Shown here: piece by piece, positions 4,181 through 39,204 of the stretch | How positions within the stretch are numbered: position 1 is the first letter of the stretch | Layout of the letters: every line of letters starts with the position of its first letter | Source of the DNA: Bacteroidota bacterium | GTDB taxonomy: Bacteria; Bacteroidota; Bacteroidia; UBA7662; JAIXUI01 | NCBI GenBank assembly: GCA_027484125.1 | Contig: JAIXUI010000157.1 | Location: forward strand, 1-41,451 | Length of the DNA: 41,451 nucleotides | Direction of reading: 5' to 3' | Made by a program: the position numbers and the translations under genes | The notes under the pieces: model-generated | What the model saw: the letters and a program-made list of their open reading frames with translations, nothing else | Database searches by the model: none | What the model was told of the DNA's origin: nothing

Positions 4181-4184
4181 GAAA

Positions 4185-5684: not shown

Positions 5685-5695
5685 GCGAGGATGGT

Positions 5696-9148: not shown

Positions 9149-9217
9149 GGTATAGCTAAAATTTCGGGCTAAAAGAGGCAAGCCATTCTTAGCCGAAATA
9201 CCGTTAGGCGTTGAAGG

Positions 9218-10066
9218 TTATTTCTGGCGATATACTTTGATGTAGTCCACCGTCATGGTTTGTGGAAATGGGGTAGCTCCTGTTGGGAAGCCCACGAAAT
9301 TTCCACCTACTGCAATGTTGAGAATCATGAAGAAGGGCTGATTGAAGACCCACTCTCCGGTTAAATCTGCTGGAGCAATTCGCTGATAAAGGAAGCCATC
9401 AACAAAATAATCGATGAAATCTGCGCCCCATTCTACGGCATAAACATGGAAGTCGTTGTTGAAGCGGCCGTTGGTGAGCATGTAAGACTTGGTCTTGGCA
9501 TTGCCACCGGAATAGCCGGGTCCATGGACGCTACCGTGGTTGATGTGCGATTCTTGCCCGCGCTGCTCCATGATGTCTATTTCTCCACACTGTGGCCAAG
9601 GTACGCTGTCGATATTGGCGCCGAGCATCCAGAAGGCAGGCCAGATTCCGGGGCCGGTTGGGGTCTTGATGCGCGCTTCGAAGCGGCCGTATTTCTGCTC
9701 AAAAAGCCCTTTGGTTTTCAACCTGGCCGAGGTAAAAGCAGAACCTGAGAAGTTCTCTCTTCTTGCCGTAATCACCAGTTGTCCTTCGCCATTCAACTGA
9801 ACGTTGGAGGTACGCTTGGTATAGAACTGCAATTCTGCATTTCCCCAACCATTGTTTCCGGTCCCGATGTCATAGGTCCATTTGGTACTGTCTGGCAGTG
9901 TTCCGGCGGTTCCTTCGAACTCATCGCTCCAGGTAAGTTCCCAGTTACGCTGAGGAAGCTCCTGTATAGCCTCTCTTTCGCAGGCACTAAATGCCAACAA
10001 TCCGGTAGCCCAAAGTGAACCGGCGATGAACCAGTTGCGTAGGGTAGATAGTTTTTGCGTTTTCAT
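9218..10066 (-). CDS. GH16 laminarinase, lipoprotein (endo-beta-1,3-glucanase)
   Basis: A 282-residue GH16 enzyme. The N-terminus is a lipoprotein signal ending LAFSAC with lipid-anchored C29. The jelly-roll catalytic domain covers about 40-282. Catalytic residues lie in CGEIDIMEQRG: E162 nucleophile, D164, and E167 acid/base. The preceding WPAFWMLG (142-149) and the HGSVHGPGYSGG stretch (177-188) are typical of bacterial laminarinase-type GH16. It should cut beta-1,3-glucan chains internally. Membrane anchoring places it on the cell surface or periplasmic face, upstream of transport. The start ATG at 10066 lies 21 nt after the lipoprotein gene before it, so they are one transcription unit. 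Lichenase activity on mixed-linkage glucan is possible. Confidence 0.9.
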   Translation of the reverse strand: MKTQKLSTLRNWFIAGSLWATGLLAFSACEREAIQELPQRNWELTWSDEFEGTAGTLPDSTKWTYDIGTGNNGWGNAELQFYTKRTSNVQLNGEGQLVITARRENFSGSAFTSARLKTKGLFEQKYGRFEARIKTPTGPGIWPAFWMLGANIDSVPWPQCGEIDIMEQRGQESHINHGSVHGPGYSGGNAKTKSYMLTNGRFNNDFHVYAVEWGADFIDYFVDGFLYQRIAPADLTGEWVFNQPFFMILNIAVGGNFVGFPTGATPFPQTMTVDYIKVYRQK

Positions 10067-15370: not shown

Positions 15371-18274
15371 ATGCGTCATCTTTTGCTGAAGAGCTTATTT
15401 TTCGGAATTCTTACTTGGCTGCCTGGCGGGCTTCATGCACAATCCAATTGGAGCACCACAGAAGTGCTTAAGTTTTCGCGTGAAGACTATGGCGGAGGCT
15501 CTCAAAACTGGGCCATAGCTGAGGACGATAAGCAGCGTATTTATGTAGCCAACAACGAAGGATTATTGATTTTTGATGGCCAACGTTGGCAAAGATTTCC
15601 AGTCCCCAACCAGACCATTCTTCGCTCTATTGCCTTAGACCAACAAGGTCGGTTATTCGCCGGTGCTCAGGACGAGCTAGGCTATTTTGCCCCTGACCAG
15701 CACGCCCGTTTGAAGTTCCACTCCTTAAAATCGCTAATTCCGATTGCAGCCCGATCATTTCAGGATGTTTGGCAAACCATTGTCTCCAACGATGGGGTTT
15801 TCTTTCGCTCAAGTAAATCCATCTACCGCTATCACCAAAACCGCATGCACGTACTCCCTTCGCGCATGGGTTGGCGGTCTCTTCATGCCCACCATGGCCG
15901 TGCTCTTGCCCATGAGGTGAGCCAAGGATTGTTGCAATGGAACCAAAACCAATGGCAAACTTACTTGCCGGCAGCTCAGTTACCGGAAGGGTTCAACCTG
16001 ACAAATTTGGTAGAACTCGGCCCCGATTCTAGCCTGGTTTGCAGTGAAAGTCATGGCCTTTTCATCTTAAGCAAACGCCAACTCAAACCGTTTAAGGTCA
16101 AGAGTGAGCTGTTCAACAACTTCCAACATTTCACTTCTTTAGCTATACTCCCCGATAGTTCCTTCTTAATCGGCACTTACTTCAATGGCATCTACCGGAT
16201 TTCCCGAAGGGGCGACCTACTGGGCAACATCTCTAACAAAAATGGCTTAAACAACAACACCGTTCGTACGGTATATGCTAACGCCAGGCAGCAAGTGTGG
16301 ATTGGCCTCGACAATGGCATCGCTTTTCTCGACCATGACAACGCCATCAGGCACCTCAATCCTTCCCTGTTCAACAACGGGGTTGGGTATGGGGTACACC
16401 GCTTGGGCAACAACCTCTATTTCGCCCTCTCCACCGGCTTGTTAAACATGCCACTTAACGGAAGCAGTAACCTTGGCAACCTGAATAATAACCTTCAATT
16501 GTTGCTACGTGGCCTAAGTTGGAACATCCACACAGCCGGAAATCGCCTACTCGCCAGCAGAGACGATGGCATTTGGGATTTAACCAATGAAAAGCCCATA
16601 CCCATTCTTCGACGCTCCGGATTTTGGACGGCCAGAAACCTTCCGAACGCGGCACTTGGAAACGCCAATGTAGTGACCGGCAGCTATGAGGGCCTCTTCC
16701 TCTTCGATACGCGCAGTCAAGCCGTTCAGAACCTGGGCGCCTGGCCGGAGTTCAACGAATCTTGCCGCTACCTCGAAGTGGACGGCCCTTTCTTCTGGGT
16801 GTCCCATCCTTATCGGGGTGTTTACCAAATCAACCGAAACAATCGCCAAAAGAAGCTGTTTCGTGAAGCAGATGGCTTGCCAAGCAACCTCAACAACCAC
16901 GTTTTCTACATCAGAAAACAGATTTTGGCAGCAACCACCCAAGGGGTATATGAATTCAACCCAAACACCAACCGGTTTCAACCCTCCACATTCTACCAGC
17001 GGTTTCTAGGCAATAAACCTGTCCAATATCTGAAGGAAGATGCCGAAGGAAGCGTTTGGTTAATTCAAGATAAACTACCCGGCGTCATCGACTTTCATCA
17101 TGAGCAGCCTCAACTGATTGTGTTCCCTGAATTAGCCAATAAAATGGTCAGTGGCTTTGAAAACATCTATCCTTACAACCGCCAAAATGTGTTTTTCGGA
17201 AGCGACGAGGGGTTTTACCACCTTAACTACGAACGTTATGTGCAAGACATTCGTCCATTTTCCGCTTATTTAGCTCAAATTCATGCCATTGGTGACACCG
17301 ATAGCAGCCTTTTCGGAGGCTTTCCCACAGGTGATTTAACCCAAAACCTTGCGCTTCCATACGATTTCAACTCCATTCAGTTCAGATTCGCCGCCACTGC
17401 GCTCAATCCTCACACGCGCATGGAGTATTCTTATGTACTCGATGGCTTTGAAAAGGAATGGTCAGACTGGTCATACAAAGCTGAAAAAGACTACACCAAC
17501 CTGCGGGAAGGAAGCTACACTTTCAGACTAAAAGCCAGAACAGGCCCAGGAAGAGAATCAAAGGTTTTTCAGTTTACAATTCGCATCCAACCACCATTCT
17601 ATCGGTCTTGGTGGGCTTACACCATCTACAGCCTTGCAATTCTTGGATTTCTTTATGGAATATTGAAGTTTCAAGCGAGAAAATATCGCAAACGTCAGGA
17701 AGACCGGCGAGCGGCTGACCAACAGCGATTTGAAGAAGAGCAGAAACAGATGGCTTATCAGCATCAACTCGATCTTGAAAAGACAGAGAAAGAGTATATC
17801 AGGCTACAAAAAGAAAAACTCGAAGCCGAAATCAATCATAAGAATGCAGAACTCGCTACAGCAACCATGAATTTGGTTCAGAAGAAAGAGTTTATCCTTA
17901 AGCTGAAAGCGGAGTTGGCCCAGCTTCAAAAAGGACCGCAGGAAAGCTCAGATACACCAGAGCTGCGAAAACTGCTCAAAACTCTAGGCGAAGAAGAAAA
18001 GCTGAACAAAGAATGGGATCACTTTGCCCAGCATTTCAATAGCGTACACGGTAACTTTCTGCAAATTCTGAAAAGCAAGTTCCCTTTATTAAAGCCTCAC
18101 GAAATGCAACTTTGCGCCTACCTCCGCATGAACCTCAGCAGCAAAGACATCGCTCCGCTCATGAGTATTTCGGTGCGTGGGGTTGAAATCAGCCGTTATC
18201 GCCTCCGTAAAAAACTGAACCTGAGCACCGAAGAAAACCTGGTTCAGTACCTCATGGATTTGAAAGCGAGTTAA
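15371..18274 (+). CDS. One-component membrane regulator: reg_prop sensor, Y_Y_Y domain, TM, coiled coil, LuxR-type HTH
   Basis: A 967-residue regulator using the ATG at 15371; an in-frame TTG at 15353 would only lengthen the signal peptide. Signal peptide 1-24 (GLHAQ). Residues about 25-660 are two-component-regulator propeller repeats, as in the periplasmic sensor of hybrid two-component systems. A Y_Y_Y domain lies at about 665-738 (MEYSYVLDGFEKEWSDW). One membrane helix (about 748-767) and a charged coiled coil (about 770-870) follow. A LuxR/NarL-like HTH is at the C-terminus (about 909-967), with SSKDIAPLMSISVRGVEISR as the recognition core. There is no histidine kinase, receiver or AraC domain, so the sensor is tied directly to DNA binding. 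Divergent placement makes it the likely activator of the glucan operon, triggered by a glucan oligosaccharide. Confidence 0.85.
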   Translation: MRHLLLKSLFFGILTWLPGGLHAQSNWSTTEVLKFSREDYGGGSQNWAIAEDDKQRIYVANNEGLLIFDGQRWQRFPVPNQTILRSIALDQQGRLFAGAQDELGYFAPDQHARLKFHSLKSLIPIAARSFQDVWQTIVSNDGVFFRSSKSIYRYHQNRMHVLPSRMGWRSLHAHHGRALAHEVSQGLLQWNQNQWQTYLPAAQLPEGFNLTNLVELGPDSSLVCSESHGLFILSKRQLKPFKVKSELFNNFQHFTSLAILPDSSFLIGTYFNGIYRISRRGDLLGNISNKNGLNNNTVRTVYANARQQVWIGLDNGIAFLDHDNAIRHLNPSLFNNGVGYGVHRLGNNLYFALSTGLLNMPLNGSSNLGNLNNNLQLLLRGLSWNIHTAGNRLLASRDDGIWDLTNEKPIPILRRSGFWTARNLPNAALGNANVVTGSYEGLFLFDTRSQAVQNLGAWPEFNESCRYLEVDGPFFWVSHPYRGVYQINRNNRQKKLFREADGLPSNLNNHVFYIRKQILAATTQGVYEFNPNTNRFQPSTFYQRFLGNKPVQYLKEDAEGSVWLIQDKLPGVIDFHHEQPQLIVFPELANKMVSGFENIYPYNRQNVFFGSDEGFYHLNYERYVQDIRPFSAYLAQIHAIGDTDSSLFGGFPTGDLTQNLALPYDFNSIQFRFAATALNPHTRMEYSYVLDGFEKEWSDWSYKAEKDYTNLREGSYTFRLKARTGPGRESKVFQFTIRIQPPFYRSWWAYTIYSLAILGFLYGILKFQARKYRKRQEDRRAADQQRFEEEQKQMAYQHQLDLEKTEKEYIRLQKEKLEAEINHKNAELATATMNLVQKKEFILKLKAELAQLQKGPQESSDTPELRKLLKTLGEEEKLNKEWDHFAQHFNSVHGNFLQILKSKFPLLKPHEMQLCAYLRMNLSSKDIAPLMSISVRGVEISRYRLRKKLNLSTEENLVQYLMDLKAS

Positions 18275-18616
18275 TTCCAAAAAGTATTTTACGGAAGTAG
18301 CAAATTCAAGAGAAAGTCCAACCCATGAACTTGAAAACATCTATTTACTCAAAAGATAGCGTACTTGCTTATCCAAAAAAACCATTAATTACTCCATTCT
18401 CAAGGTGTTGATAAGCCTTCTTCTTGGCGGTTGCCCTACTCAGTATTAAAGAGACAAGGATTTAAAACAGTCCTTTTATCCATTGGTAATTTTCCTTGTA
18501 AGGATTTGGAGCTGCCAAAAGCTGTGGTTCTTTCTTTAGCTCTAACTGAAGGGCACTAATGTTTAGTGCGGACCTTATGATGAGCACAATTTCTAAGAGA
18601 ACTATTAGTGCAATCA
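18275..18616. other. Intergenic spacer without recognised feature
   Basis: 342 bp between the convergent regulator and cytochrome gene ends. I see no ORF with coding character, no RNA gene and no stem with a following T-run that would serve as a clear terminator for either gene. Confidence 0.5.
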
Positions 18617-19951
18617 TTATTTGAAAGATAAAATGTATTGTGAAAGGTCTTGAAGTTCTTGATCGGACAATTGAGCAAAGCCCGGCATTTGAGGGTAATC
18701 CGGTCTTTTTTTACCAGGTGCTTTAATCCATTGTTTTAAAGCAGCCTCATTACCGGAATAAATAGAAACCATTTCTTTAATTGGAGGACCAACTATTTTC
18801 TGATCCAGTTGATGACAAGCACTGCAATTTTGCTGAAAAACTGCTTCTCCGGCAGCAAAAGGGTTATTCGCACTTTCGTCTTGCTTCTTAACTTGGTTTA
18901 ATTTTGCTTCCTCTCTGGCTTTTTTACTCAATTCATTGAAACTGGCTGTATGTTCTGCCATTAATTGCTGGTGTTTGTGTAACGCATTGTGCCTATACAG
19001 CTGACGGCTCCCCCCGTAAAAAACCAAGAAAACCACTACAGAAATAATTATTTTCTTCAAATGAGTGTCGCCTCTTAACGTTACTATTCGTAAAGATTGA
19101 TACGACCACCATAAGGCTGCCATCAAAGAAAAACCCGCACTCAACATTAAGCCAATTAATTCAAAAGTAATCCCTTTAGGAGGAAGCGTAAATACCACCA
19201 ACAATCCGAATAAAATTTGAGCAGCAAATCCTAAAACAGCAAAATAATACCCAATCCTTTTCACCTCTTCCCTGCTAAATTCACCTTGGTAGATTTCATC
19301 AAATGGGTAGTTTTTTCTGCTGTTGTACGCAACCAAAAAGACCCCGGTAATAGAAATGCACCCGGCGAGAAACTCCAAGTATCGTGGAAACACATTGGGC
19401 AAGGCTAATGCGCTCAAGTAGCCTTTCACCAAACCCCACTTTTCCGGAAACATCATTAAATTGACATTTGTAAGAAAAATAGTTGGAATAAACAGAAATA
19501 TTAAAGTGGCAGCTCCAATTATTGAAATGTGTATGCGTTTCGTTCGCTTCATGGAATTCCATGAATACTTATGCAAGTAAGTTAGCAAGAAAGCAATGGT
19601 CACCAACGGAATAATCATAATCCAAACAAAACCAGTGAGGGCATTTGCTGAATAAAAATAAACCGTATATAACGTGTTGATGCTCAACAACGGCGCAACT
19701 CCTAACACCACCGCCAAGCTCTTATTTACGGTAATGGTTTTGGCTATTTCATGCGCTAATACATCAAAGCGGCCGTCCTTCAATCCCCGTATTTGCGCCC
19801 AAAAAGTTAAAATACTTCCTCCAACCATTAAATGGATAAAGACTATGTGCAAAAGGAAGGAAATAATGAGCAAACTTACGCCTAGCCATTCAGGAAGTGG
19901 TAACGCCAAGGGAATATCCTTAGGAACCGGTGTAGTGATTTGTAACAACAT
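18617..19951 (-). CDS. Cytochrome bd superfamily-like membrane subunit with C-terminal cytochrome c domain (subunit 2)
   Basis: A 444-residue protein with about 8-9 membrane helices (22-320), a charged linker (about 325-362) and a mono-haem cytochrome c domain (about 363-444). The haem motif is CSACH (376-380), with M422 in PQMPGF as probable axial ligand. The first helix contains H35 and H40 (LLHIVFIHLMVGG), a placement like the N-terminal haem-ligand helix of CydA. It starts 4 nt after the partner stop, so the two are co-translated and probably form a complex. The cytochrome c tail suggests electrons enter from a c-type cytochrome or are passed through it, rather than from quinol at a Q-loop. 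Reaction (oxygen or other acceptor) is unknown. Assignment to the bd superfamily is by pattern only. Confidence 0.6.
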   Translation of the reverse strand: MLLQITTPVPKDIPLALPLPEWLGVSLLIISFLLHIVFIHLMVGGSILTFWAQIRGLKDGRFDVLAHEIAKTITVNKSLAVVLGVAPLLSINTLYTVYFYSANALTGFVWIMIIPLVTIAFLLTYLHKYSWNSMKRTKRIHISIIGAATLIFLFIPTIFLTNVNLMMFPEKWGLVKGYLSALALPNVFPRYLEFLAGCISITGVFLVAYNSRKNYPFDEIYQGEFSREEVKRIGYYFAVLGFAAQILFGLLVVFTLPPKGITFELIGLMLSAGFSLMAALWWSYQSLRIVTLRGDTHLKKIIISVVVFLVFYGGSRQLYRHNALHKHQQLMAEHTASFNELSKKAREEAKLNQVKKQDESANNPFAAGEAVFQQNCSACHQLDQKIVGPPIKEMVSIYSGNEAALKQWIKAPGKKRPDYPQMPGFAQLSDQELQDLSQYILSFK

Positions 19952-19955
19952 GATT

Positions 19956-21437
19956 TTACTTTTGAGACAATGAAGGCGCTTGTGTGGAATTGGAAGGCAT
20001 TCGGGATTCGGCTACTTTCTTTGCATTATTATGTGGACTAATTGCAATCCCGGAACCTTGTACCCCTTCAAGCGTTTCTCCTGTAATTTGTAAATTCTTG
20101 ATATACGCAACAAGCGCATCCAATTCTTCCTCATTTCCTGGAAATGGCGGCATGTAGGTTCGTGCGCTATGCATATTCTGAATGTAAACCTTCATCGCAT
20201 TTGCTTCAAAAGGCTTATTAATGCCATACATGCGTTCAAAAACTTGGGTAATTCCATTCACGCCTTGGGTGGTATGGCAACGGCTACATGTGTTCATAAA
20301 CACTTCTTTACCAGCTATTAATTTATTCTCTTCGGTAATGGTTTCTATTGCACTGTAGGTGGCATACTTTAAAATACCATCGCGCTGATAAAGTGGATAA
20401 TCCTCTACCCTTAACAAATTAGAGTACATATAACCTCCAATGATGTAAGGCTTACGAATAAATTCACGAACCCTTTCAAATATTCCAAGAAAGCCAAAAA
20501 CTCCTAAACACGCTACAAACACATATACAGTTTTTATTTTAGAAGCTTTTACAACTGCTAAAATGCCCACTACCAAGGCGGTAGAGCATGCTCCAATAAT
20601 GAAATATCGAAGTAAATCATAATACTGTGCAAACTCGATGGTTCCCACCGCTGTGCTCATATTGGCCTTCATAGCTGCTGGCATTACTTTCCAGTAATAA
20701 ATAGCTCCAAGTACCGCAAATGGAATCATGGTAAGCACCCATTGGCCGGCGTGGCGCAACAAAGATTCTCGGTGTTGATGTTTGCGAGAGACCATGATGG
20801 AGGTCAAAAGCATTCCGAAAATCCCTGCAACCAACATAGCTACCGGCGTTCGAAACAATAATTGAGGCAAATAAATAGGGTTTGTGAACCCATTTAGCAA
20901 ATTCTGATCGGTATTCCAATTGCCCGGATCCATCATAAATCCTAAAATTGCTACGATAATAGCCATGGTAATCCACGAAAATATCGCCAAGAACCATCCA
21001 AAATTAATGTGCCTAAGCTTAGACTTAAGACTCTTGTTTGACGATTTCCAAGTGAGAAAATAAATTAATATAAGCACTACTTCCGTAACAAACACTAACC
21101 ATTCAATAAACCATGCCCAATAAAACACCCGAATTAAACTTCCTATGGAGGTTGGGCTGATTAAGGCTGCTGAAAACCAGATGCCCACACCCGTCATTGC
21201 CCCGATGGACGTAGTGATGATAAAGGCAATTTTCATCTTCCGATAAACGATATCGTCCCATTGTGTATCGGTAATTTGGTTCGAAGAAGCCATTTTTACG
21301 CCTTTTCGCTCCAACCAAACTATGTAAGGAATGAATCCTACTGCCAAACCATGATTGATAAACACATGCAAAATCGCGATAATCGCGATCAAAAACCGGT
21401 CGTTAAGCCAGTCAAGGTGAAACATGGGAAAGTCCAT
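19956..21437 (-). CDS. CydA-like (cytochrome bd superfamily) membrane subunit with C-terminal cytochrome c domain (subunit 1)
   Basis: A 493-residue protein with about 9 membrane helices, then a mono-haem cytochrome c domain from about 368 and a low-complexity Ser/Asn tail (about 460-493). Helix 1 has H24 and H29 (AILHVFINHG), like the CydA b595 ligand helix. GAMTGVGIWF (79-88) and the acidic pair E112/E119 in WFIEWLVFVTEV match in order and spacing the CydA stretch that carries E99/E107. The later TNPIYLPQLLFRTPVA (185-200) resembles the CydA helix with low-spin haem ligand H186, but the His position is Arg196 here by eye. The haem c motif is CSRCH (384-388). I infer a c-type-cytochrome-linked bd-superfamily oxidoreductase with the next gene. 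It is not a canonical CydAB quinol oxidase. Confidence 0.6.
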   Translation of the reverse strand: MDFPMFHLDWLNDRFLIAIIAILHVFINHGLAVGFIPYIVWLERKGVKMASSNQITDTQWDDIVYRKMKIAFIITTSIGAMTGVGIWFSAALISPTSIGSLIRVFYWAWFIEWLVFVTEVVLILIYFLTWKSSNKSLKSKLRHINFGWFLAIFSWITMAIIVAILGFMMDPGNWNTDQNLLNGFTNPIYLPQLLFRTPVAMLVAGIFGMLLTSIMVSRKHQHRESLLRHAGQWVLTMIPFAVLGAIYYWKVMPAAMKANMSTAVGTIEFAQYYDLLRYFIIGACSTALVVGILAVVKASKIKTVYVFVACLGVFGFLGIFERVREFIRKPYIIGGYMYSNLLRVEDYPLYQRDGILKYATYSAIETITEENKLIAGKEVFMNTCSRCHTTQGVNGITQVFERMYGINKPFEANAMKVYIQNMHSARTYMPPFPGNEEELDALVAYIKNLQITGETLEGVQGSGIAISPHNNAKKVAESRMPSNSTQAPSLSQK

Positions 21438-22141
21438 AGCTGTTGATTTTGTTGACTACAAAGTTCAGGGCTTTCAATAGGATGACGAGGAATTAAAACC
21501 TCCTTATATTTCACTTTTTCAGCTTCTATTTTCAACTATTGCTTTCATCTTTTATTCATTTTAAACTCCCCTTTTTCACTAATAACTTCTATTGTTATAC
21601 TTTTTGCGCTCCTGATTTCTGCCCTACTTTTAGCTTTACAAACAAGGCTAAACTTCCTGATATGGAAGCATTTAAATAGAGCTGCACTAAAGAAAACGAA
21701 TATAGAAAAAGAGAGATAAGTAAATTTCTTGTTTACGCTTCGCCCTACCTAGGGCATTCATTGGTGTCTTTCCTTGACGTTTAACAGGTTAAAGCATGAA
21801 CCAATGAGCAACACTAACTCTATAAAGAATCGCAAGGATTCAACCTTTCAAGTGTTACTCCTTGTTTGAGCTTTTCAAGTCGCCAGATGGGAAACATTTT
21901 AATTCTACGATACCCAGGCTACTCTTAGTCTTTTTTATGCACCAGAACTAAATGAATCCGGAACAGATAGATATTAATGAAATGTTTTCGGGAGCAATTA
22001 GTGTAGTTTAAAACACCCTAATCCTGAGCCGCTTATATTAGAAAAAACCTCAATAAAAAGCACAAATAAACAATGATTAAAAGTTATAGCGGATTATACT
22101 TTCTACACGTTTTAAATTATGGCCCAATAACCATGTTTGAA
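21438..22141. other. Intergenic spacer with several short inverted repeats
   Basis: 704 bp, A/T-rich, upstream of the cytochrome pair and downstream of the AraC gene on the same strand. No credible ORF. It contains GCCCTA-CC-TAGGGC at 21742-21755 and TTTAAC-AG-GTTAAA at 21780-21793. A nested pair follows: GAGCAACACT (21806-21815) against AGTGTTACTC (21851-21860), enclosing GAATC/GATTC (21827-21841). These could be protein sites or RNA structure in the cytochrome leader. None matches a family I know. Confidence 0.4.
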
Positions 22142-23005
22142 TCAACTCTGTGTTTTTCTGTATTTCTCCGGACTTACACCTATTTCCTTTTTGAAAAGCG
22201 TGTTGAAATAAGGGGCATGTTCGAAGCCCAGTTTAGTGGCTATTTCATTGATAGAATAATTGGTATAAAACAACAATCGTTGTGCTTCCATGAGGATGCG
22301 TTTGCGAATCAGATAGCCAGCGGTTTGATTGCATACTTCCTTACAAATTTTATTTAAATAGCCAGGAGTTACATGAAGCATTTCAGCATATTGAGAAGGC
22401 AACTTCAACCGTTCAAAGTGTAAATCAATTAAACGCTCAAACTCAAGCACCTTTTCTTGCTGAATGCTTTTATGTTTAGGCATCTCAAAAGGTTTAAACA
22501 TTCGTTCAATCTCAAAAAGAACGATATTCAGATACGAACGCAGCACCTTATAAGTTTCCCTTTGTCGCAAGTCAAACTCTTCTTTGATGAACGTAAGCAA
22601 TACATACAGTTTTCGCTCATTTTCTTCTGAAATACGCAAAAAAGACTGAACATCCGATTTCAAGAAAGAAAAATTATGGAGAATATTGTTGTTATACCTT
22701 AGAGAGAAAAAATTATCAGTAAATACAATGAAATACCCCTTTGTTGAGGGCGATAAATCTACTTTAAAAATATTTCCAGGCTTTATAAATACAATTTTTT
22801 GACCTTCAACACGAACTTTTTGAGAATCAATTTGAAGAAATCCTTCTCCCTCCTCAATGATAAAAATAGCAAAAAAGGTAGCTATATGTGAAAACTCAAG
22901 AAATGGAAATTGTTGAAGTAAACGTTCTGTACTTCCTACCCAAAAATGAGCTTGATTTTCTCCGAAACTTTCCAATTTAAGATTTGGAACCAGGTGATTA
23001 CTCAT
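22142..23005 (-). CDS. AraC family transcriptional regulator
   Basis: A 287-residue regulator. Residues about 40-115 form a cupin-like ligand domain (HIATFFAIFIIEEGEGFLQI, then VFIKPGNIF). Two helix-turn-helix motifs cover about 195-287. The first includes YAEMLHVTPGYLNKICKE. The second includes SINEIATKLGFEHAPYFNTLFKKEIGVSPEKYR, the usual AraC signature. It lies 123 bp downstream of the exported DJ-1-like gene on the same strand and is probably the local regulator of that gene and the TonB receptor. The start ATG at 23005 gives the full cupin domain. The effector is not predictable. Confidence 0.9.
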   Translation of the reverse strand: MSNHLVPNLKLESFGENQAHFWVGSTERLLQQFPFLEFSHIATFFAIFIIEEGEGFLQIDSQKVRVEGQKIVFIKPGNIFKVDLSPSTKGYFIVFTDNFFSLRYNNNILHNFSFLKSDVQSFLRISEENERKLYVLLTFIKEEFDLRQRETYKVLRSYLNIVLFEIERMFKPFEMPKHKSIQQEKVLEFERLIDLHFERLKLPSQYAEMLHVTPGYLNKICKEVCNQTAGYLIRKRILMEAQRLLFYTNYSINEIATKLGFEHAPYFNTLFKKEIGVSPEKYRKTQS

Positions 23006-23071
23006 AAAAAGAAGTTTAAAGGTTGCGTGACTATTTTGATTCCGGTAGGATATAAGTGTTGAACCAACAAG

Positions 23072-23099
23072 TCAATGGCACGCGGAATCGTGCCATTGA
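23072..23099 (-). terminator. Strong hairpin after the DJ-1-like gene
   Basis: A perfect 11-bp stem, TCAATGGCACG/CGTGCCATTGA, with a 6-nt loop, 30 nt past the DJ-1-like stop codon. No T-run follows on the minus strand, so it may stabilise RNA or attenuate rather than terminate in the standard way. Confidence 0.5.
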
Positions 23100-23128
23100 T
23101 AAATCATCGTCCTTCATTCCTAAAATGG

Positions 23129-24013
23129 CTATTTTTGTGAATTTTTCTTCCTTTCGAGACTGTCAATCAATGGATTGACGCCTCCATCGTACATGGCTTT
23201 CATCATCCAATTGACCGCCCAATTAGTTTTATCCGGTGTGCCTCCTTGAATGGGTGGTTGAGGATCATACTCCATATCTAACATGATGGCTTGCGCATAA
23301 CGGTCACCATAAATTGACTTCATAATGGCCAATGACATATCAATACCAGCACTTACACCAGCAGAGGTCCAGTATTTACCGTCGTTGACGTATCGCTGAT
23401 TCGCAGGGATGGCCTTATACTTTTTCAAAAACTCTTCTTCTCGGTACCAATTGGTACAAGCTTTTTTGTTTTCAAGTAATCCGGTTGCTCCTAAAATCCA
23501 AACACCTGTGCATACAGCCGCGGTTAGCTTACTGTTTTGATCTATTTTTTTTATCCAACCAAGCACTTTGGCATCATAAGCGGCCTCAATTGTGCCGGTA
23601 AATCCACCCGGAATTACCAATACATCCAATTGATTTACCGAATCGATTACGGCATCAGGAATAATCTCTACGCCCATTACCGTTTTAATTTTTCCGGGTT
23701 TTACTCCAATCAATCGGGTTTTCACTCCCATGGCTTGCCCAAGTACATACCTAGGCCCCATCATATCGAGTTCATTTACGCCGTCATAAACCAGAATTCC
23801 GATTGTAGCAATATCCAAGGTTGGTTTGCCAAACAATAGTTCCATCGTTTTTACATGTTCGTCAGGCTTAAAGTTGGCAATCTCTTTCGCTAACTCAGAA
23901 GAGTCCTCTTGACTCATGACGACTTCTTGGGCTTGCTGTGGTGGATTGTCCGACGATTCAGAACATCCGAATGCTACCAACAACGGTAAAAAAAAGGGCA
24001 AAATTGGTTTCAT
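23129..24013 (-). CDS. Exported DJ-1/PfpI family lipoprotein (isonitrile-hydratase-like)
   Basis: A 294-residue protein with a lipoprotein signal ending LLVAFGC (C17), a Ser/Gln/Glu-rich linker (about 18-45), and a DJ-1/PfpI (class I glutamine amidotransferase-like) domain about 66-255. The candidate nucleophile is C168 in LTAAVCTGVWIL, in the nucleophile elbow. The supporting acid is E81 in DGVNELDMMGP. TSAGVSAGIDMSL (216-228) is the conserved segment after the active site, as in isonitrile hydratases and AraC-linked DJ-1 domains. Most family members are cytoplasmic; this one is lipid-anchored and exported. It lies in a locus with an AraC gene and a TonB receptor. The substrate is unknown; a small nitrogenous or metal-chelating compound would fit. 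Confidence 0.8.
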   Translation of the reverse strand: MKPILPFFLPLLVAFGCSESSDNPPQQAQEVVMSQEDSSELAKEIANFKPDEHVKTMELLFGKPTLDIATIGILVYDGVNELDMMGPRYVLGQAMGVKTRLIGVKPGKIKTVMGVEIIPDAVIDSVNQLDVLVIPGGFTGTIEAAYDAKVLGWIKKIDQNSKLTAAVCTGVWILGATGLLENKKACTNWYREEEFLKKYKAIPANQRYVNDGKYWTSAGVSAGIDMSLAIMKSIYGDRYAQAIMLDMEYDPQPPIQGGTPDKTNWAVNWMMKAMYDGGVNPLIDSLERKKNSQK

Positions 24014-24060
24014 AATAGAAATTAAAAGCGTGCTTTAACATTTTAATAAATCAATAAACA

Positions 24061-24100
24061 TGTTGCCTTCCGGATATATATGGAATATCGGAAGGCAACA
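24061..24100 (-). terminator. Hairpin terminator after the 131-residue exported protein gene
   Basis: The stem TGTTGCCTTCCG/CGGAAGGCAACA has 12 bp and extends by four more pairs past one bulged base. It lies 12 nt past the stop at 24113. The minus-strand sequence that follows is T-rich (TGTTTATTGATTTATT), consistent with an intrinsic terminator or attenuator before the DJ-1-like gene. Confidence 0.65.
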
Positions 24101-24112
24101 CATTTCCGATTT

Positions 24113-24508
24113 TTAATGCTTTTCGTTACGGCAAAGTCCTACAATTTCGTGGAATACATCGTGTAAGGCAGACAACGATTTCGTAATGCTTTCATTCGAA
24201 GCTTTCTGCTCAATCATTTGGTGCAATGCCTCACTATCTTTCTCCAGACGTTTTACTGCTTGGAGAATTTTCTTGGTTTGATATTCTTGAGGAATTTTTG
24301 ATTTCGCAAGAATAGCCGCCTTCTCCATCATTTCTTTACTTCGGGTTTTTATAGGCTCTAAATTCCCCTCTTCCGATGGATGAAACGTTTGCGACATTAC
24401 CCCATGAAACTGCTTCAATTCACCCCATTTTTCGAAAATGGATTGTGCTTGTAAACTTGAAATCCCCCATGTGCAGAGGACAAACAAAAGAAGACCGATT
24501 CTTTTCAT
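24113..24508 (-). CDS. Small exported helical protein, function unknown
   Basis: 131 residues, signal peptide 1-21 (ISSLQAQ). The mature part is predicted to be almost all alpha-helical: FHGVMSQTFHPSEEGN, then amphipathic helices rich in Lys/Glu, ending LSALHDVFHEIVGLCRNE. The length and four-helix look recall cytochrome c' or cytochrome b562-type bundles, but there is no CxxCH, so any metal or haem binding would rest on His/Met/Cys residues such as those in HDVFHEIVGLC. It is 29 nt after the TonB receptor stop and so is co-transcribed with it, suggesting a periplasmic partner for the imported ligand. I do not recognise a named family. Confidence 0.65.
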   Translation of the reverse strand: MKRIGLLLFVLCTWGISSLQAQSIFEKWGELKQFHGVMSQTFHPSEEGNLEPIKTRSKEMMEKAAILAKSKIPQEYQTKKILQAVKRLEKDSEALHQMIEQKASNESITKSLSALHDVFHEIVGLCRNEKH

Positions 24509-24537
24509 CTTTTTTAAAGTTAGTTGGTTGTTGTTGT

Positions 24538-26937
24538 TTAAAATTTGGCTTGAAGGGTTACCCCCACTGTTCTTGGCATGGCGGTTCTCAAACTGAAACC
24601 TAAACTAGAATCTGCATTACCAAAGGCAAGAAAACGCTCGTTGGCTAAGTTCTGCCCCCAAAGTGTGATGGCGTAGCGGCTGTAAACAAGCGCTAAATGA
24701 CCGTTTATTACGGTGTATGTAGGCTGTTCTAATTTGTTTTGAATATCGGTGAAATACGACCCCATGTTACGGACTTCTGAACGCGCCGTTAACTTCAGTT
24801 TCTTACCAAAAGAAAACTCATATTGTCCCGCTAAAAACAAAGTATGTCGAGGAGCATTCGACAATCTGTTACCTCCAATCGGCGTAACAAATTCCGTATT
24901 GGTTAAAAAGTTAAATCGCTTTAGGTTAAAAGCCTCATAATTGGTTTCATTTATCCCAAGGCTTCCTTCGAGTTGAAGTCCACGAATTGGAATAGCAGTT
25001 ACTTCTACTTCAACACCCATAGAACGGGCATCCCCTACATTTTCTCTCGCAAACACCCCCGGTGCTACTAAATTGAAGAATTGCAAGGATTGCCATTGTA
25101 TATAAAATGCCGAAGCCGAAAAACTCAGTTTTTTATTGGCTAATAACGCCTTATATCCCAACTCAAAATTGTCAGAGAACTCGGGATTATAGGTGGTGTT
25201 GATGCCTTGAGGTAAGCGCTGTGCATTGATTCCACCAGCCCTAAACCCTCGGTTGTAAGTGATATAAGCTTGACTTTGGGCTCCAATTTCATACGAAAAT
25301 GCCAACTTTGGAGACAATGCCGAATATGTACCACTTAAGCTGGTGTCTGGACGAACAAACGTAAGCGCATTGTTGCTGAAAATTGCATCGGGATCCGGAA
25401 AAGGATTGTAGGCAATTCCATTGAATATAGACTCGCGTCGTTCGTAATCGTACCGCAATCCTCCGGTAGCTTTTATTCGTTTGGTTATTTGGTAGCTCAT
25501 CTCGCCAAAACCTGCCAAACCTAAGTTGTCAGATTTGTTTCTGGATATAGCGTAAAGATTAGGGGTTAACTCCCAAGTATTATTGGTGGAAGGTTCATAA
25601 CCAAACTGATGAAACCCAAATACACCACCGGTGTATTGTAATTTAGAAGCGCCTGTAGATTGTATCCTAATTTCTTGACTCAACACTCGCTGAGGAGGCA
25701 GCATTTCACCAATTTGCTTTTCATAGAAGGAATGGTAAAATAAACCGCCAAAATCTATGTCTTTAAACGATAAACCTATCGTTTGGAAGGCAGATATGGA
25801 AGTGATTGATACGGACTTGGCTTCGTACTTAGTTACCAAGGAGGCATTCACAATTTGCCTTTCGTGTTGGCCGATTCTGGAAAGATTGATTACATCAGGT
25901 TTTGCAAATGCCTCTTTTACATCACGCTGTGAAACAAAAAACCCGGTGTTGTCGCTCCAGTCTCTTTGTCCTTTCAGATTCAAGGTGAAGTTAAGCCGCG
26001 AACTTGCCAACCATTTTAAATAAATATTGCCATAAAAATTGTTTTCTCCTCCTACAGTCTTGCCAAGCGTGCTTCCATCTAAAGCCCCGGTTCCTGTGGT
26101 ATCGTTTTTCCAATAACCATCTCTGCGTTGATACAATGCATTCACGCCAAAAAACAACTTATTGGCAATAAGTGGCGTGCGAACTCCCAAACTGTAGCGC
26201 TGTAATCCCAAATTGCCTAAGCTAACTTCTGCAAAACCACTGGTTTTATTGGTAGGCTTTCGTGTAATCAGGTTTACCACACCGCCCATTGCATTTCTGC
26301 CAAACAGGGTTCCTTGCGGACCTCGAAGCACCTCTATTCGCTCCAAATCGGTAAGCGCAAAACCGTTGGCCAATATATCCAACTGATTGACATCGTCTAT
26401 GTAGGTAGAGACTGCCGGATTTTCACTGAATACTTGAATGCCCCGTATCGATTGAACTTGCTGGAATGGCACTCCCAATTCCTGGTAATTATAGTTGGGC
26501 ACTAAAGCGGTTAGCCCACTTAAGCTCCACGTTCGGGTATTTTCGATTCGATCTGCGTTTAGTGATGTAACAGCAACTGGCACTTGAACCAAGGCTTCTT
26601 CGCGCTTGGAGGCGGTTACTACCACTTCTCCTAAAACTAAATTGCTGTTGGTGAGGATTTTGTTAAGCGCTTTGGTGTTAGCATCAATTTTTATTTCCTG
26701 AATCTCCGGAGCATACCCAACAGCGGAAAACTGCAATTTATAAGTCCCTGGATTGAGTGACAATTGATATTCTCCATTAGAATTCGTAGTGGTTTGAAGA
26801 CTTCGATTCAAAACGGTTATCAAGGCTCCGGATATAGGACTTCCTTGATCCGAAGTAATTCGGCCCTGTAACATTTGGCCTTTGGCAATGAGCGTAAAAA
26901 AGCACATTGCGAAACAAAAGAGTTGAGTTATTCGCAT
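24538..26937 (-). CDS. TonB-dependent outer-membrane receptor
   Basis: 799 residues from the ATG at 26937; an upstream in-frame TTG at 26976 would spoil the signal peptide. The signal peptide is about 1-20. A carboxypeptidase-regulatory-like beta-sandwich covers about 20-105. The plug domain (about 110-225) has VVVTASKREEALVQVPVAV at its start and RIEVLRGPQGTLFGRNAMGG in its core. The C-terminal beta-barrel ends in a terminal Phe (TLQAKF). The plug wording and size are closer to siderophore or metal-complex receptors than to SusC, and no SusD gene is nearby. With the small exported proteins around it, a metallophore, haem or metal substrate is likely but unproven. A structured leader may control it. 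Confidence 0.88.
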   Translation of the reverse strand: MRITQLFCFAMCFFTLIAKGQMLQGRITSDQGSPISGALITVLNRSLQTTTNSNGEYQLSLNPGTYKLQFSAVGYAPEIQEIKIDANTKALNKILTNSNLVLGEVVVTASKREEALVQVPVAVTSLNADRIENTRTWSLSGLTALVPNYNYQELGVPFQQVQSIRGIQVFSENPAVSTYIDDVNQLDILANGFALTDLERIEVLRGPQGTLFGRNAMGGVVNLITRKPTNKTSGFAEVSLGNLGLQRYSLGVRTPLIANKLFFGVNALYQRRDGYWKNDTTGTGALDGSTLGKTVGGENNFYGNIYLKWLASSRLNFTLNLKGQRDWSDNTGFFVSQRDVKEAFAKPDVINLSRIGQHERQIVNASLVTKYEAKSVSITSISAFQTIGLSFKDIDFGGLFYHSFYEKQIGEMLPPQRVLSQEIRIQSTGASKLQYTGGVFGFHQFGYEPSTNNTWELTPNLYAISRNKSDNLGLAGFGEMSYQITKRIKATGGLRYDYERRESIFNGIAYNPFPDPDAIFSNNALTFVRPDTSLSGTYSALSPKLAFSYEIGAQSQAYITYNRGFRAGGINAQRLPQGINTTYNPEFSDNFELGYKALLANKKLSFSASAFYIQWQSLQFFNLVAPGVFARENVGDARSMGVEVEVTAIPIRGLQLEGSLGINETNYEAFNLKRFNFLTNTEFVTPIGGNRLSNAPRHTLFLAGQYEFSFGKKLKLTARSEVRNMGSYFTDIQNKLEQPTYTVINGHLALVYSRYAITLWGQNLANERFLAFGNADSSLGFSLRTAMPRTVGVTLQAKF

Positions 26938-27059
26938 ATTAAAAATTGAATTGAGAAAGAAAGGAGCCTGCCCCAATGGCAGAGAGTGGCGATGAACAGT
27001 CCGTTTAGCAGACTGCTTTTATAATGAAATCAAGTAGAAAAAAAGGGATAGCCCATTAG

Positions 27060-27190
27060 CACCCAATTCGCTCGTTTTCCGAAGAAATCTGATAAGGTAA
27101 AGGCCTTCGCTAAGGAACACAGCCGGCCATTAAACCATCATCAGCCTATTCCCTTATGGCTTGAAACCTATTGAAACACCACGGCAAACC
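27060..27190 (-). promoter_or_regulatory. Possible degenerate cobalamin-riboswitch-like leader of the TonB receptor
   Basis: The 355-bp space between the small Cys-motif gene and the receptor has no ORF of note. On the minus strand it carries AGGTTTCAAGCCATAAGGGA followed by ATAGG (about 27145-27170). This resembles the conserved first half of cobalamin riboswitches (aUagGU...GCC...AAGGGAA). The expected CCCCGCnACUGUAA segment is absent; GGCTGTGTTCCTTAGCG stands in its place. A divergent or decayed aptamer, or chance, are both possible. Confidence 0.2.
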
Positions 27191-27292
27191 GACGCCCACA
27201 ATAGCACAGTAACGGGGTAAGTCAATAAAAAGGAAATCCTTCTGACAAACTGAAAACGGAAAAAGTAAAGAAAAGGGGCTAAAAAGAGTTGG

Positions 27293-27664
27293 TTAGGCTC
27301 TCGGAGGATGAAAAATGCCAAATATGGGCAGTAAATAACACCCAATGGTACGCGGAGAAAACCCTACAGTACCCAAAACCCTATCAAGTATGGGCGAAAT
27401 TGAAAAAGACCTGTTTTCGGAACTAAGCAACAACTCCGCCGATTGTTTCATCGTTCTGGGAGCCTGAGTATCTGCTTCAGCTTTACTTAGTTGCTTTTTT
27501 AAATAGCAACTTCCCTGACAACAATTGTCTTCAACTTCTTTCTGCTCGCAAAGCTCCTCTGCAATGAAAGTCTGTGAAACTTTAAATGACAAAACAACCC
27601 ATAACCCCGCAAGCGTTTGCAGGCTCAGTGCTAATGCAAGCAAAATGGTCGTAAATTGTCTCAA
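27293..27664 (-). CDS. Small membrane-anchored Cys-motif protein (CxGxCYLxKQL type), TTG start
   Basis: 123 residues with an N-terminal hydrophobic segment (about 5-25) that is a signal anchor or signal peptide. ELCEQKEVEDNCCQGSCYLKKQL (38-59, Cys at 39, 48, 49 and 53) and the C-terminal FHPPRA are the landmarks. From memory, small Bacteroidota proteins with a CNGKCYL-KQL motif and an FHPP end sit beside TonB receptors and metal genes; metal binding is likely but untested. An in-frame stop (TGA) lies three codons upstream and there is no early ATG, so TTG at 27664 is the only sensible start. A perfect TAnnTTTG -7 element sits just upstream (27684-27691). It is the first gene before the receptor. 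Confidence 0.65.
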   Translation of the reverse strand: MRQFTTILLALALSLQTLAGLWVVLSFKVSQTFIAEELCEQKEVEDNCCQGSCYLKKQLSKAEADTQAPRTMKQSAELLLSSENRSFSISPILDRVLGTVGFSPRTIGCYLLPIFGIFHPPRA

Positions 27665-28419
27665 TCCTATTCAGATTTATTGGCAAAACTAATCAAAAAC
27701 AGTAACGAAACGAATTAGGACAAGAGAATGTTTAATCATCGCATTTATTAGTGCTTCTTTCCAAACAAACCGCTTCATTCTTTATCCTATTCACTTAATG
27801 CTTATCCTCAGCATGTCTTGCACTCAATGTGTTCCAACCGCCATTGTCGGACAAAAGATTTCGCTAAAACACATCATTGACCATGCTAATAGCATTTTTT
27901 CCATACATGCTCTTCGTGTTTATGCTGCTAAAAACACGATTTGGCACCGATAAGGTGGAAACTCATGATTGGCTTTGTGCCATCTCAAAAAACCTTTACC
28001 CTTATAGATTTCATGCAGATTTGGCTATTTACCGGCGTAAATCTGCTTAAAAATTGCGCTTTGGAGCGCATGTTTGGTGAACTTAAGATCGCTTTTTCAA
28101 TGATGTTTATCCATCATCATGTATCGAATGGGTTTTAATTTGACCGAATATTCTACTCCAATAGTCCAGTCCAATATCATATCTCCATTTAATGCACACA
28201 TGATTTTATTAATATTAAAGTTGATTTTTATAATTATTAGGTTGAAAAAGATCATTCAAAAGTAAGCTTTCATAATTCATTCATTGACTTAATCATTTAA
28301 CAGCTACAAGTTGATGGAATAGAAGAAATCACCATCATGAGTTTAATACTATCTATTGCTCGTTCTATTAAAGGCACAACCATAAAATCGACTAATCGCA
28401 TCGCTCATTCCATAAATAA
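27665..28419. other. Long intergenic spacer with three hairpins, no convincing gene
   Basis: About 755 bp of A/T-rich sequence. Apart from the promoter element at 27684 it holds three perfect inverted repeats: TCGTGTTT/AAACACGA (27914-27921 and 27932-27939), GCAGATTT/AAATCTGC (28015-28022 and 28039-28046), and TGCGCT/AGCGCA with a 4-nt loop (28055-28070). A 65-codon open frame on the plus strand (27941-28138) lacks an ATG and shows no coding character. The hairpins could belong to an unrecognised RNA. Confidence 0.4.
27684..27691 (-). promoter_or_regulatory. Bacteroidota -7 promoter element for the Cys-motif gene
   Basis: TAGTTTTG on the minus strand is an exact match to TAnnTTTG. Its inner edge is 19 nt from the TTG start at 27664, leaving a leader of about 14 nt. 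The -33 region reads TTCGTTTCG rather than a clean TTTG, so it is only partly conserved. Confidence 0.45.
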
Positions 28420-28464
28420 AAAAGGGTTCACGCTAAACACCATGTGCTTCTCGTGAACCCTTTT
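28420..28464 (-). terminator. Intrinsic terminator of the DUF2723 gene
   Basis: A perfect 13-bp stem, AAAAGGGTTCACG/CGTGAACCCTTTT, with a 19-nt loop. It is followed on the minus strand by TTTATTTATG, so the T-run is right for a minus-strand transcript. It lies 18 nt past the stop at 28483. Confidence 0.9.
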
Positions 28465-28482
28465 CTGGTCTAGTTCAATCTT

Positions 28483-31400
28483 TTAGAACTGAGGCGGAGT
28501 GCTGTATGGTTTGCTGCGGCGCTCATATTCTTCAGCTAGTTTGGTTTCGTTGAAGGTGCGAGCCATGCGAGACAATTCATTCATGATAGCGCCCGCATTC
28601 ATCAAGTCGCGCTCATAGAAGTTACGCTGCTTAGGCGCCAAACTGCTGTAATAGCGCGCTTCTGACTCATACATATTGAAGAGGATGTTGGAAATCTTCT
28701 TCGCTTTATCGGTTGCACCACACAAATAATACAGTTCTACAATGCGGTAGTTGTACAAAATGTAAGGCACATACTCATTAGGCATCACTTGGTCACAACG
28801 ATCTAATACCTGGATAGCCTTCGCCTTGTCGCCTTTCGCAAAGAGCGCTTCAGCCAAGCGAATGAAATTAGATCGAAGGTTGATGGTCATGCGGCTGGTC
28901 TCAGGATCGATGTAAATACCCTTATCCATATTGCCCCAGCGAAACTTGGTCATCACATTGTTGAACATCAGGTCGGTATGAACGGAACCGAAGGTCTCAC
29001 CTTGCTGAGAAGGAGTGCGGTAAGGCACAAATCGGTAATTCAAGCCTTCCAACTGGAAGTATTCCTGCAAACCGAGGTAGGAATCAGGGCCCATGGAGAT
29101 GGTGAAGTAAATCGGGCGCTCAAAGCCATTCGAAGCGATAAGGTCCAGCACCATCAAATCATTCTTCAACAAACCACCTCGAGGAATCGTAAACTTAAGC
29201 GTATCCTGAACAAGTGGAATAAACTCTTGAGGAATGTAACCATCCTTCAACACCTTCTCCTTATTGACCTTGATATACACCTCCTTAGTTGGCATATAGT
29301 TAACCTGCTCGCCACTTTGAGTCGCCAGTTTGGCGCCCGGCTCATCGCTGGTCATAAACGTCATCATCTCACCCAATTCAGCTGCTCCGGGTAGCTTAGC
29401 ATCATAAAATGGAATATAATCCCGAAGTCCCTGAACAATCTTGCTCTGGTCGATGCTGAACTTCACCCCTTTGCCTTTGCCATCACGGCTATCCTGACGC
29501 ATTTGATTGATGTACCAGTCGGTTCCGAGAAGACTAAGGTTCACAATCTTCACATCAGTACGGATACCTTCCACCTCCTGGGCATACCAGAGTGGATAAG
29601 TATCGTTGTCGCCCATGGTAAAGAGAATGGCATTGGGCGCACAACTTTCCAGATAGTTAATTGCGAAATCGCGAGCGGTGTACTTGTTACCACGATTGTG
29701 ATCGTCCCAGTTTTGCTGGGCCATCAAACCGGGAACTGCCACCAATGAAACAGCTGTTACTGCCATGGCAGCAACGGTCTCCGGTGACTTCTTACGCAAC
29801 CAATCAAACAACGCCATCACGCCTAAACCAATCCAAATGGCATACGTATAGAACGAAGCCGAATAAGCATAATCACGCTCACGAGGCTGGAGCGGTTCAG
29901 GATTCAAATAAACGTTGATTAAAATACCAGTAAAGAGGAAGAGAATCATCACCACCCAGAAATCCTTGTTGTCCTTCTTCATTTGGTAGTAAAGACCTAT
30001 AATTCCTAACAACAAAGGCAAGAAGTAATAGGCGTTATTGCCTTTGTTCGCTGCTTTGTACGCAGGCATATTCTCCTGCTTGCCGATACGCGGCTCATCG
30101 ATAAACGAGAAACCACTGATCCAGTTCCCTTTTTCAGGATCATTGCCATGACCTTGAATATCGTTCTGGCGACCCACAAAATTCCAGAAGAAATAGCGGG
30201 CCCACATGTGACCCAATTGATAGCTAAATAGGAAGTTCAGGTTGTCTGCAAAACTTGGCACCTGACCGTCGCGGAGCTTCAACCAACTTTTGTAGAAATC
30301 GATGTGGCGCTGCATCGTTCCTGCACGGCGATAAGCGCGTGGGAAAAGGGTGCTTTGTTTCGGATCGAATACCGGAATTGGCTCACGTCCAGCCTCTTCA
30401 TACTTATCCTTACCGCGATAATACTTCATCGGACCTTCTTCTTGATCCACCAACTCCGCAGTGAAATAAGGGCCGTATAGCAAGGGGCGATCGCCGTATT
30501 GCTCACGACTTAAGTAAGAAAGCAAAGAAAAAGCCTCCTCAGGATTGTTCATATCGATGTTGGGATTGGCTTTCGAACGAACAATCGTAGAAGTGTAAGA
30601 AGAATAGCCCATCAACACGAAAGCAAGTCCCAAAATGGCCGTATTCCAAATGACCATTCCTTTTTTCCGGGTGTAGAAATAGCCATATATCATTCCTCCG
30701 AGGAGCAGCAGAATCATGACAATAGCACCTGACCCGAAGGGCATGCCCATGCCATTCACAAACATCAACTCAAAGCGAGTGGCGATTTTGGGTAGATAAA
30801 GGATGACCCCGTACTGAATCAAAGCCAGGATAGCCATTCCGATTACTCCGGTAGTAATCACACCCATGGTGGAAGTGTTTTTCACCTTACGGAAATAATA
30901 AACGAAACAGATAGCCGGGATTGCGAGCAAGTTCAATAAGTGGACCCCAATGGAAAGCCCCATGAGATACGCTATCAAGATAAGCCAACGGTTAGAATCC
31001 GGCTCATCGGCATGGCGGTCCCATTTGAGGATAGCCCAGAATACGAGGGCGGTAAACAAAGAAGAAAGGGCATAAACCTCGCCTTCTACTGCCGAAAACC
31101 AGAACGAATCTGAGAAACAGTATGCGAGTGCACCAACTGCACCAGCACCCATGATGGCGATGCGCTGGCCCACGGTTAGCTCAGGATTTTCCTTTTCAGC
31201 CATTTTTCGACCAAAGGCCGTGATGGTCCAGAAAAGGAATAGAATGGTGAAAGCACTGGAGATCCCCGACATCGCATTTACCGCAGCCGCTACAGCTGCC
31301 GGCTCGGGAGCAAAGAGGGTGAATAGTCTTCCAATCATCAAAAACAAGGGAGCACCCGGCGGGTGAACCACTTGAAGCTTGTAGCAAGCAGAGATAAACT

Positions 31401-39203: not shown

Positions 39204-39204
39204 T

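Follow-up and report, generated by a model that had tools for sequence, protein, structure and literature searches.

The gene pair S1-S2, located in a stretch of 41,451 nucleotides from a Bacteroidota bacterium (contig JAIXUI010000157.1; the whole stretch is called the window), encodes two CydA-like membrane subunits which we place with great confidence in the bd superfamily. Overall the pair is best read as the heterodimer of a copper-free cytochrome c:O2 reductase of that superfamily, and we hold this reading to be probable. The two genes are as follows.

19956..21437, minus strand: S1, CydA-like subunit of 493 aa with 8 TM helices and a C-terminal mono-haem cytochrome c domain
18617..19951, minus strand: S2, second CydA-like subunit of 444 aa with 8 TM helices and a C-terminal mono-haem cytochrome c domain

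Both genes lie on the minus strand with a gap of 4 bp between them. The cytochrome c domain is the only part of either protein that is recognised by Pfam and NCBIfam (Pfam: S1, PF13442 at 5.3e-9 and PF00034 at 1.4e-6; S2, PF00034 at 8.6e-12). The Pfam model of CydA, PF01654, is matched by neither S1 nor S2, which is a sensitivity limit of the model and no biochemical feature; PF00115 (haem-copper oxidase / NO reductase subunit I) gave no match in either protein, and the Rfam scan of positions 18000-28500 gave none. The positive-inside charges of S1 and S2 place both haem c domains and both termini in the periplasm. The mono-haem c domain which a preliminary description had proposed at the end of each subunit is borne out by these Pfam matches, by the motifs CSRCH in S1 and CSACH in S2 and by a conserved distal Met, which is M429 in S1 (81/81) and M422 in S2 (73/77).

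The kinship with CydA was analyzed by fold search and by profile comparison. AlphaFold models were used for the fold search (S1 with a moderate pLDDT of 78, S2 with 88), and bd oxidase chains were the top PDB matches of both models with a probability of 1.00, which assigns the CydA-type fold to the two subunits. For S1 there were nine matches at E <= 0.001, all of them CydA/AppC chains (E 1.1e-5 to 9.4e-5), and for S2 two, both E. coli CydA-type chains. With HMMER the S1 profile reached 5doq_A, subunit I of the Geobacillus bd oxidase, at E 2.4e-5 over helices 1-5; the S1 membrane profile alone matched CydA weakly (E 0.011). The combined profile of S1 and its sister family was compared by hhalign with that of 28 Bacteroidota CydA sequences and gave a probability of 96.1% in local and 97.3% in global mode, and its reversed control gave 3.2%. 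S2 matched CydA at 93% by profile alignment. When only their membrane parts were compared directly, S1 and S2 gave no significant match (13%), and the common ancestry of the two is inferred because both match CydA. The structure search thus keeps the proteins inside the bd superfamily, where the preliminary description had put them, and the profile comparison with its control and a sister family above the Cyt_bd_oxida_I cut-off agree with it.

The residues of interest in the two subunits are listed below, all on the minus strand.

21366..21368, minus strand: S1 His24, corresponding to the His of CydA that binds an active-site haem (E. coli His19); 80/81, the other being a gap
21102..21104, minus strand: S1 Glu112, corresponding to Glu99 in E. 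coli; 81/81
21081..21083, minus strand: S1 Glu119, corresponding to Glu107 in E. coli; 81/81
20850..20852, minus strand: S1 Arg196, on or next to the site of His186, which binds the low-spin haem b558 in CydA; 81/81 and 7/7 sisters
20463..20465, minus strand: S1 Glu325 of the EFIRKPY motif, corresponding to Glu445 of the GRQPW motif, which is a ligand of haem b595; 81/81 and 7/7 sisters
20274..20288, minus strand: S1 haem c motif CSRCH, residues 384-388
19847..19849, minus strand: S2 His35, which aligns with the haem His near the N-terminus of CydA; 77/77
19373..19375, minus strand: S2 Glu193, adjoining the CydA b558-His position; His in 58/77 relatives
18812..18826, minus strand: S2 haem c motif CSACH, residues 376-380

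Five residues of CydA, namely His19, Glu99, Glu107, Glu445 and Arg448, have their counterparts in S1 as H24, E112, E119, E325 and R328. Of the 81 aligned S1 sequences 80 cover H24 and H29, and all of these have both residues; E112, E119, R196, E325, R328 and CxxCH are invariant. In the global hhalign comparison of the S1 and sister profile with CydA the motif EFIRKPY falls on EMGRQPW, and E325 is therefore taken as the counterpart of Glu445. Apart from Glu107 and Arg448, the E. coli residue numbers were taken from PMC8585947. S1 thus has counterparts of His19, Glu99/107 and Glu445, the residues that bind the two active-site haems and by which a bd superfamily member is recognised, and the count of conserved haem ligands comes to H24, E112, E119 and E325, all aligned and invariant. 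The E112/E119 pair of CydA type had already been pointed out in S1, and a His-bearing N-terminal helix in both subunits; each is present throughout the alignments at the frequencies given above. The earlier account did not include E325 and R328 of the GRQPW motif, the lack of a Q-loop or the setting of the genes in an operon. S2 could be aligned with CydA through H35, and H35 and R190 are invariant in its 77 sequences; the catalytic glutamates are absent from it. At the S2 position adjoining the b558 site 58 of the 77 sequences have His and 19 have Glu, as in the window, so that S2 may possibly bind a haem there. Chance is excluded as the source of these features because they are conserved in 80 homologous two-gene loci. 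In Chitinophaga pinensis YS-16 (L020, 6032-7407) S2 is broken into two overlapping frames, which is likely a frameshift or a sequencing error.

The low-spin haem site and the quinol site of CydA are lost in S1. The b558 ligands His186 and Met393 have no counterparts, there being no conserved Met in TM7, and the loop between TM6 and TM7 has ~15 residues (about 252-266), so that the Q-loop is absent. Because b558 and the Q-loop are lost, S1 would be unable to accept quinol electrons as canonical bd oxidases do. Arg196 had been proposed to stand at the position of the low-spin haem His; this is what hhalign gives with one gap, but in the HMMER alignment to 5doq the position is occupied by F195 and the Arg is one residue beyond. 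S1-S2 is a variant worth testing for three features: an Arg that is invariant where the haem site was lost, a haem c domain on each subunit, and the copper cassette.

A sister family of the same phylum and the same layout exceeds the Pfam cut-off of Cyt_bd_oxida_I (PF01654) with 63.6 and 66.9 bits, and its S1' keeps H24, E112, E119, R196, E325 and R328. In two loci (L124:4295-8511 and L127:3095-7190), which by our guess come from a Chlorobi/Ignavibacteria-like lineage, the genes form an operon S2'-Rieske-cytochrome b-S1', where S2' is without haem c and S1' carries haem c in L124 and is without CxxCH in L127. It is possible that the product is a fused bc/bd-type respiratory complex, and this operon is the strongest genetic hint that electrons arrive from a quinol:cytochrome c reductase. 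The coupling of S1-S2 to c-type cytochromes, also proposed in the preliminary description, is supported by the haem c domains fused to both subunits, by the loss of the quinol loop and by these sister operons, which include Rieske and cytochrome b genes. Another sister S1 (L087:1501-4188; L125:6940-9627) is fused to a C-terminal multihaem region with eight CxxCH in 896 aa, and it adjoins an S2-like protein without haem c.

The scan of genome contigs gave 80 homologous loci, S1 with S2 adjoining in 80/80, and these make 81 with the window. The relatives are 48-73% identical to the window S1 and are found mainly in Bacteroidota, also in Pseudomonadota, Planctomycetota, Aminicenantes and Sericytochromatia; the pair is widespread in culturable Flavobacterium, Chitinophaga and Sphingobacterium. 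It is a strict pair in the 81 loci, yet 59 further genomes from the order and class of the window's genome lack it, and it is therefore probably mobile. Around the window the S1 tree mixes Flavobacteriaceae, Sphingobacteriaceae and Crocinitomicaceae with weak internal support, and because of this mixing lateral transfer is likely. The genome of the window (3.33 Mb, 99.7% complete) encodes alternative complex III and the caa3 and cbb3 oxidases, and no CydA was found in it. A role as a simple substitute for CydAB was considered and rejected, canonical CydA being present in 31/42 genomes with S1-S2 vs 36/80 genomes of the phylum.

The genes upstream of S1 in the window form with it a cluster which lies wholly on the minus strand in the order CNGxC-TonB-24113..24508 protein-DJ1-AraC-S1-S2.

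22142..23005, minus strand: AraC-family regulator, upstream; neighbour in 59/81 loci
23129..24013, minus strand: DJ-1/PfpI-like lipoprotein with a lipobox; recurrent neighbour
24113..24508, minus strand: small exported protein with conserved His and Cys, no convincing Pfam match; in 3 other loci
24538..26976, minus strand: TonB-dependent receptor, with close relatives beside S1-S2 in other genomes too
27293..27664, minus strand: small Cys-motif protein (C...CxGxC...FHPP); its Cys and FHPP motifs, judged by eye, place it in the CNGxC family

The product of 24113-24508 may, as a guess, be a four-helix protein. Counted over the 81 loci, which are not independent and are dominated by Flavobacterium, the neighbours are AraC (59), CNGxC (45), SCO1/SenC (36), YHS (21), exported Fe/Mn-SOD (13), MbnP (9), DJ-1 (8), TonB receptor (7) and a MauG/CCP-type MbnH-like protein (6), the family names having been checked with Pfam. 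The gene order SCO-CNGxC-AraC-(SOD-YHS)-S1-S2 recurs in several families; SCO, YHS and SOD are absent from the window's own cluster. S1-S2 is probably regulated along with copper or oxidative-stress genes. From these neighbours a role linked to copper is suggested, a tentative proposal to which we give somewhat less than an even chance. SCO proteins can also serve as thiol reductants in haem c maturation, and the SOD and DJ-1 neighbours indicate oxidative stress as much as copper.

In the relatives an inverted repeat, GCAGGAA-N13-TTCCTGC, with a T-rich tract, occurs 81-96 nt upstream of the S1 start (with one poor match at 140) in L056, L061, L003, L033, L048, L084 and about 29 other loci. It keeps a near-fixed distance from S1 whatever the upstream gene, its loop is conserved too and its stem covariation is modest; it is a candidate terminator, attenuator or operator, and it was not found upstream of S1 in the window. 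Elsewhere in the window, at a distance of ~8 kb from the cassette, positions 34999-40533 encode a heavy-metal RND efflux system of CusA/CzcA type together with its adaptor and its outer membrane channel, and positions 2750-10066 hold genes for beta-glucan degradation (endo-1,6-beta-glucanase-like and 1,3-1,4-beta-glycanase-like) with an adjoining GPH symporter.

Other explanations of the pair were weighed along with the preferred one. That S1 and S2 are unrelated membrane proteins with a fused cytochrome c might be thought from the cytochrome c being all that Pfam and NCBIfam recognise, but the fold search, the profile alignment with its reversed control and the bridge through the sister family over the Pfam cut-off make it barely conceivable. 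A nitric oxide reductase would use cytochrome c electrons at the two-haem site for turning NO into N2O or detoxifying it, and a membrane haem enzyme coupled to c-type cytochromes would be suited to this; NirK is above the cut-off in 13 of the 42 S1-S2 genomes. This is not a clear enrichment against 16/80, however, the nir, nor and nos genes are absent from the recurrent neighbour families, and neither NirK nor NorB occurs in the genome of the window, whose two PF00115 proteins belong to caa3 and cbb3, so that we regard NO reduction as quite improbable. A link of S1-S2 to denitrification is accordingly unsupported.

The neighbours were also read in two other manners. In a non-energetic oxidase of stress defence, belonging to an oxidative-stress regulon, O2 or peroxide would be scavenged with cytochrome c electrons and the copper genes would be there for copper-driven damage. 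The exported Fe/Mn-SOD of 13 loci, the DJ-1 lipoproteins and the MauG/CCP-type di-haem protein are in favour of it, and stress roles of canonical bd oxidases are described in the part of PMC8951039 consulted. The SCO and CNGxC neighbours are commoner than SOD, however, and the sister operons with Rieske and cytochrome b resemble an energy-conserving chain; we therefore think this explanation unlikely. A periplasmic metal redox module would pass the electrons to copper-handling proteins (SCO, MbnH-like, TonB uptake) and not to O2, for which the copper-handling neighbours speak, as does the sister S1 with eight CxxCH, a feature that hints at external redox partners for that lineage. With the active-site residues of an O2-reducing superfamily invariant, and with sisters which adjoin the bc complex and not metal genes, we find it very unlikely.

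Among the known systems the canonical CydAB quinol oxidase (qOR; E. coli bd-I/bd-II and G. thermodenitrificans 5doq) has the helical fold common to both subunits and shares with S1 the active-site His19, Glu99, Glu107, Glu445 and Arg448. S1-S2 differs from it by having no counterparts of the b558 ligands His186/Met393, no Q-loop and no ninth TM helix, by the haem c fused to each subunit and by the CydA-like S2 in place of CydB. The bd families without quinol site, OR-C and OR-N, were reportedly defined by Murali, Gennis and Hemp in 2021 (ISME J). As far as the consulted parts of the literature describe them, these families resemble S1-S2 in having no quinol site, a presumed cytochrome c donor and two paired CydA-like paralogues (CydAA'), and S1-S2 is probably a candidate member of OR-C. 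In the parts consulted of PMC10839748 and PMC12342949, OR-N is a putative cytochrome c-oxidising CydAA' which is experimentally unconfirmed; the consulted parts of the papers discussing the bd families give no biochemistry of OR-C, and those of the papers citing the OR-C/OR-N definition make no mention of haem c on both subunits or of a copper/SCO/AraC cassette. The caa3 and cbb3 haem-copper oxidases are like S1-S2 in their cytochrome c donor and in the c domains fused to some subunits, but have an unrelated fold and depend on copper. The sister S2'-Rieske-cytochrome b-S1' differs in lying inside a bc-complex operon and in its S2' without haem c. No biochemically characterised member of the S1-S2 family was found in the literature.

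In the copper-free cytochrome c:O2 reductase which we prefer, S1 would be the catalytic subunit, with H24, E112/E119 and E325 as predicted ligands of two active-site haems, and the position of CydB would be taken by S2, a paralogue of CydA type. The donor is most likely the cytochrome c pool reduced by the alternative complex III of the genome. Electrons would pass from complex III (here ACIII) to this pool, from there to the periplasmic fused haem c domains and then to the two-haem site of S1, where O2 would be reduced to water without copper; the conserved ligands of this site make O2 a rather likely acceptor. The adjacent AraC factor, judged by the neighbours, probably co-regulates S1-S2 with genes for copper acquisition and oxidative stress. 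The pair may then be a copper-independent outlet for electrons under conditions that restrict caa3 and cbb3, both of which depend on copper. The most specific proposal, that of an O2 reductase free of low-spin haem, with two fused haem c domains that feed the two-haem site, which an AraC regulator induces as the respiratory branch of a copper-starvation regulon in Bacteroidota (SCO, MbnP/MbnH, TonB, CNGxC), is conceivable but rather doubtful.

Large branches of the bd superfamily are predicted to use cytochrome c and not quinol, and S1-S2 is a compact two-gene member of this kind. Its active-site ligands are intact and its neighbourhood predicts the conditions of its expression, which makes the question of its donor and acceptor experimentally simple. 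If the link to copper is true, S1-S2 would be the respiratory counterpart of the copper-sparing responses known elsewhere.
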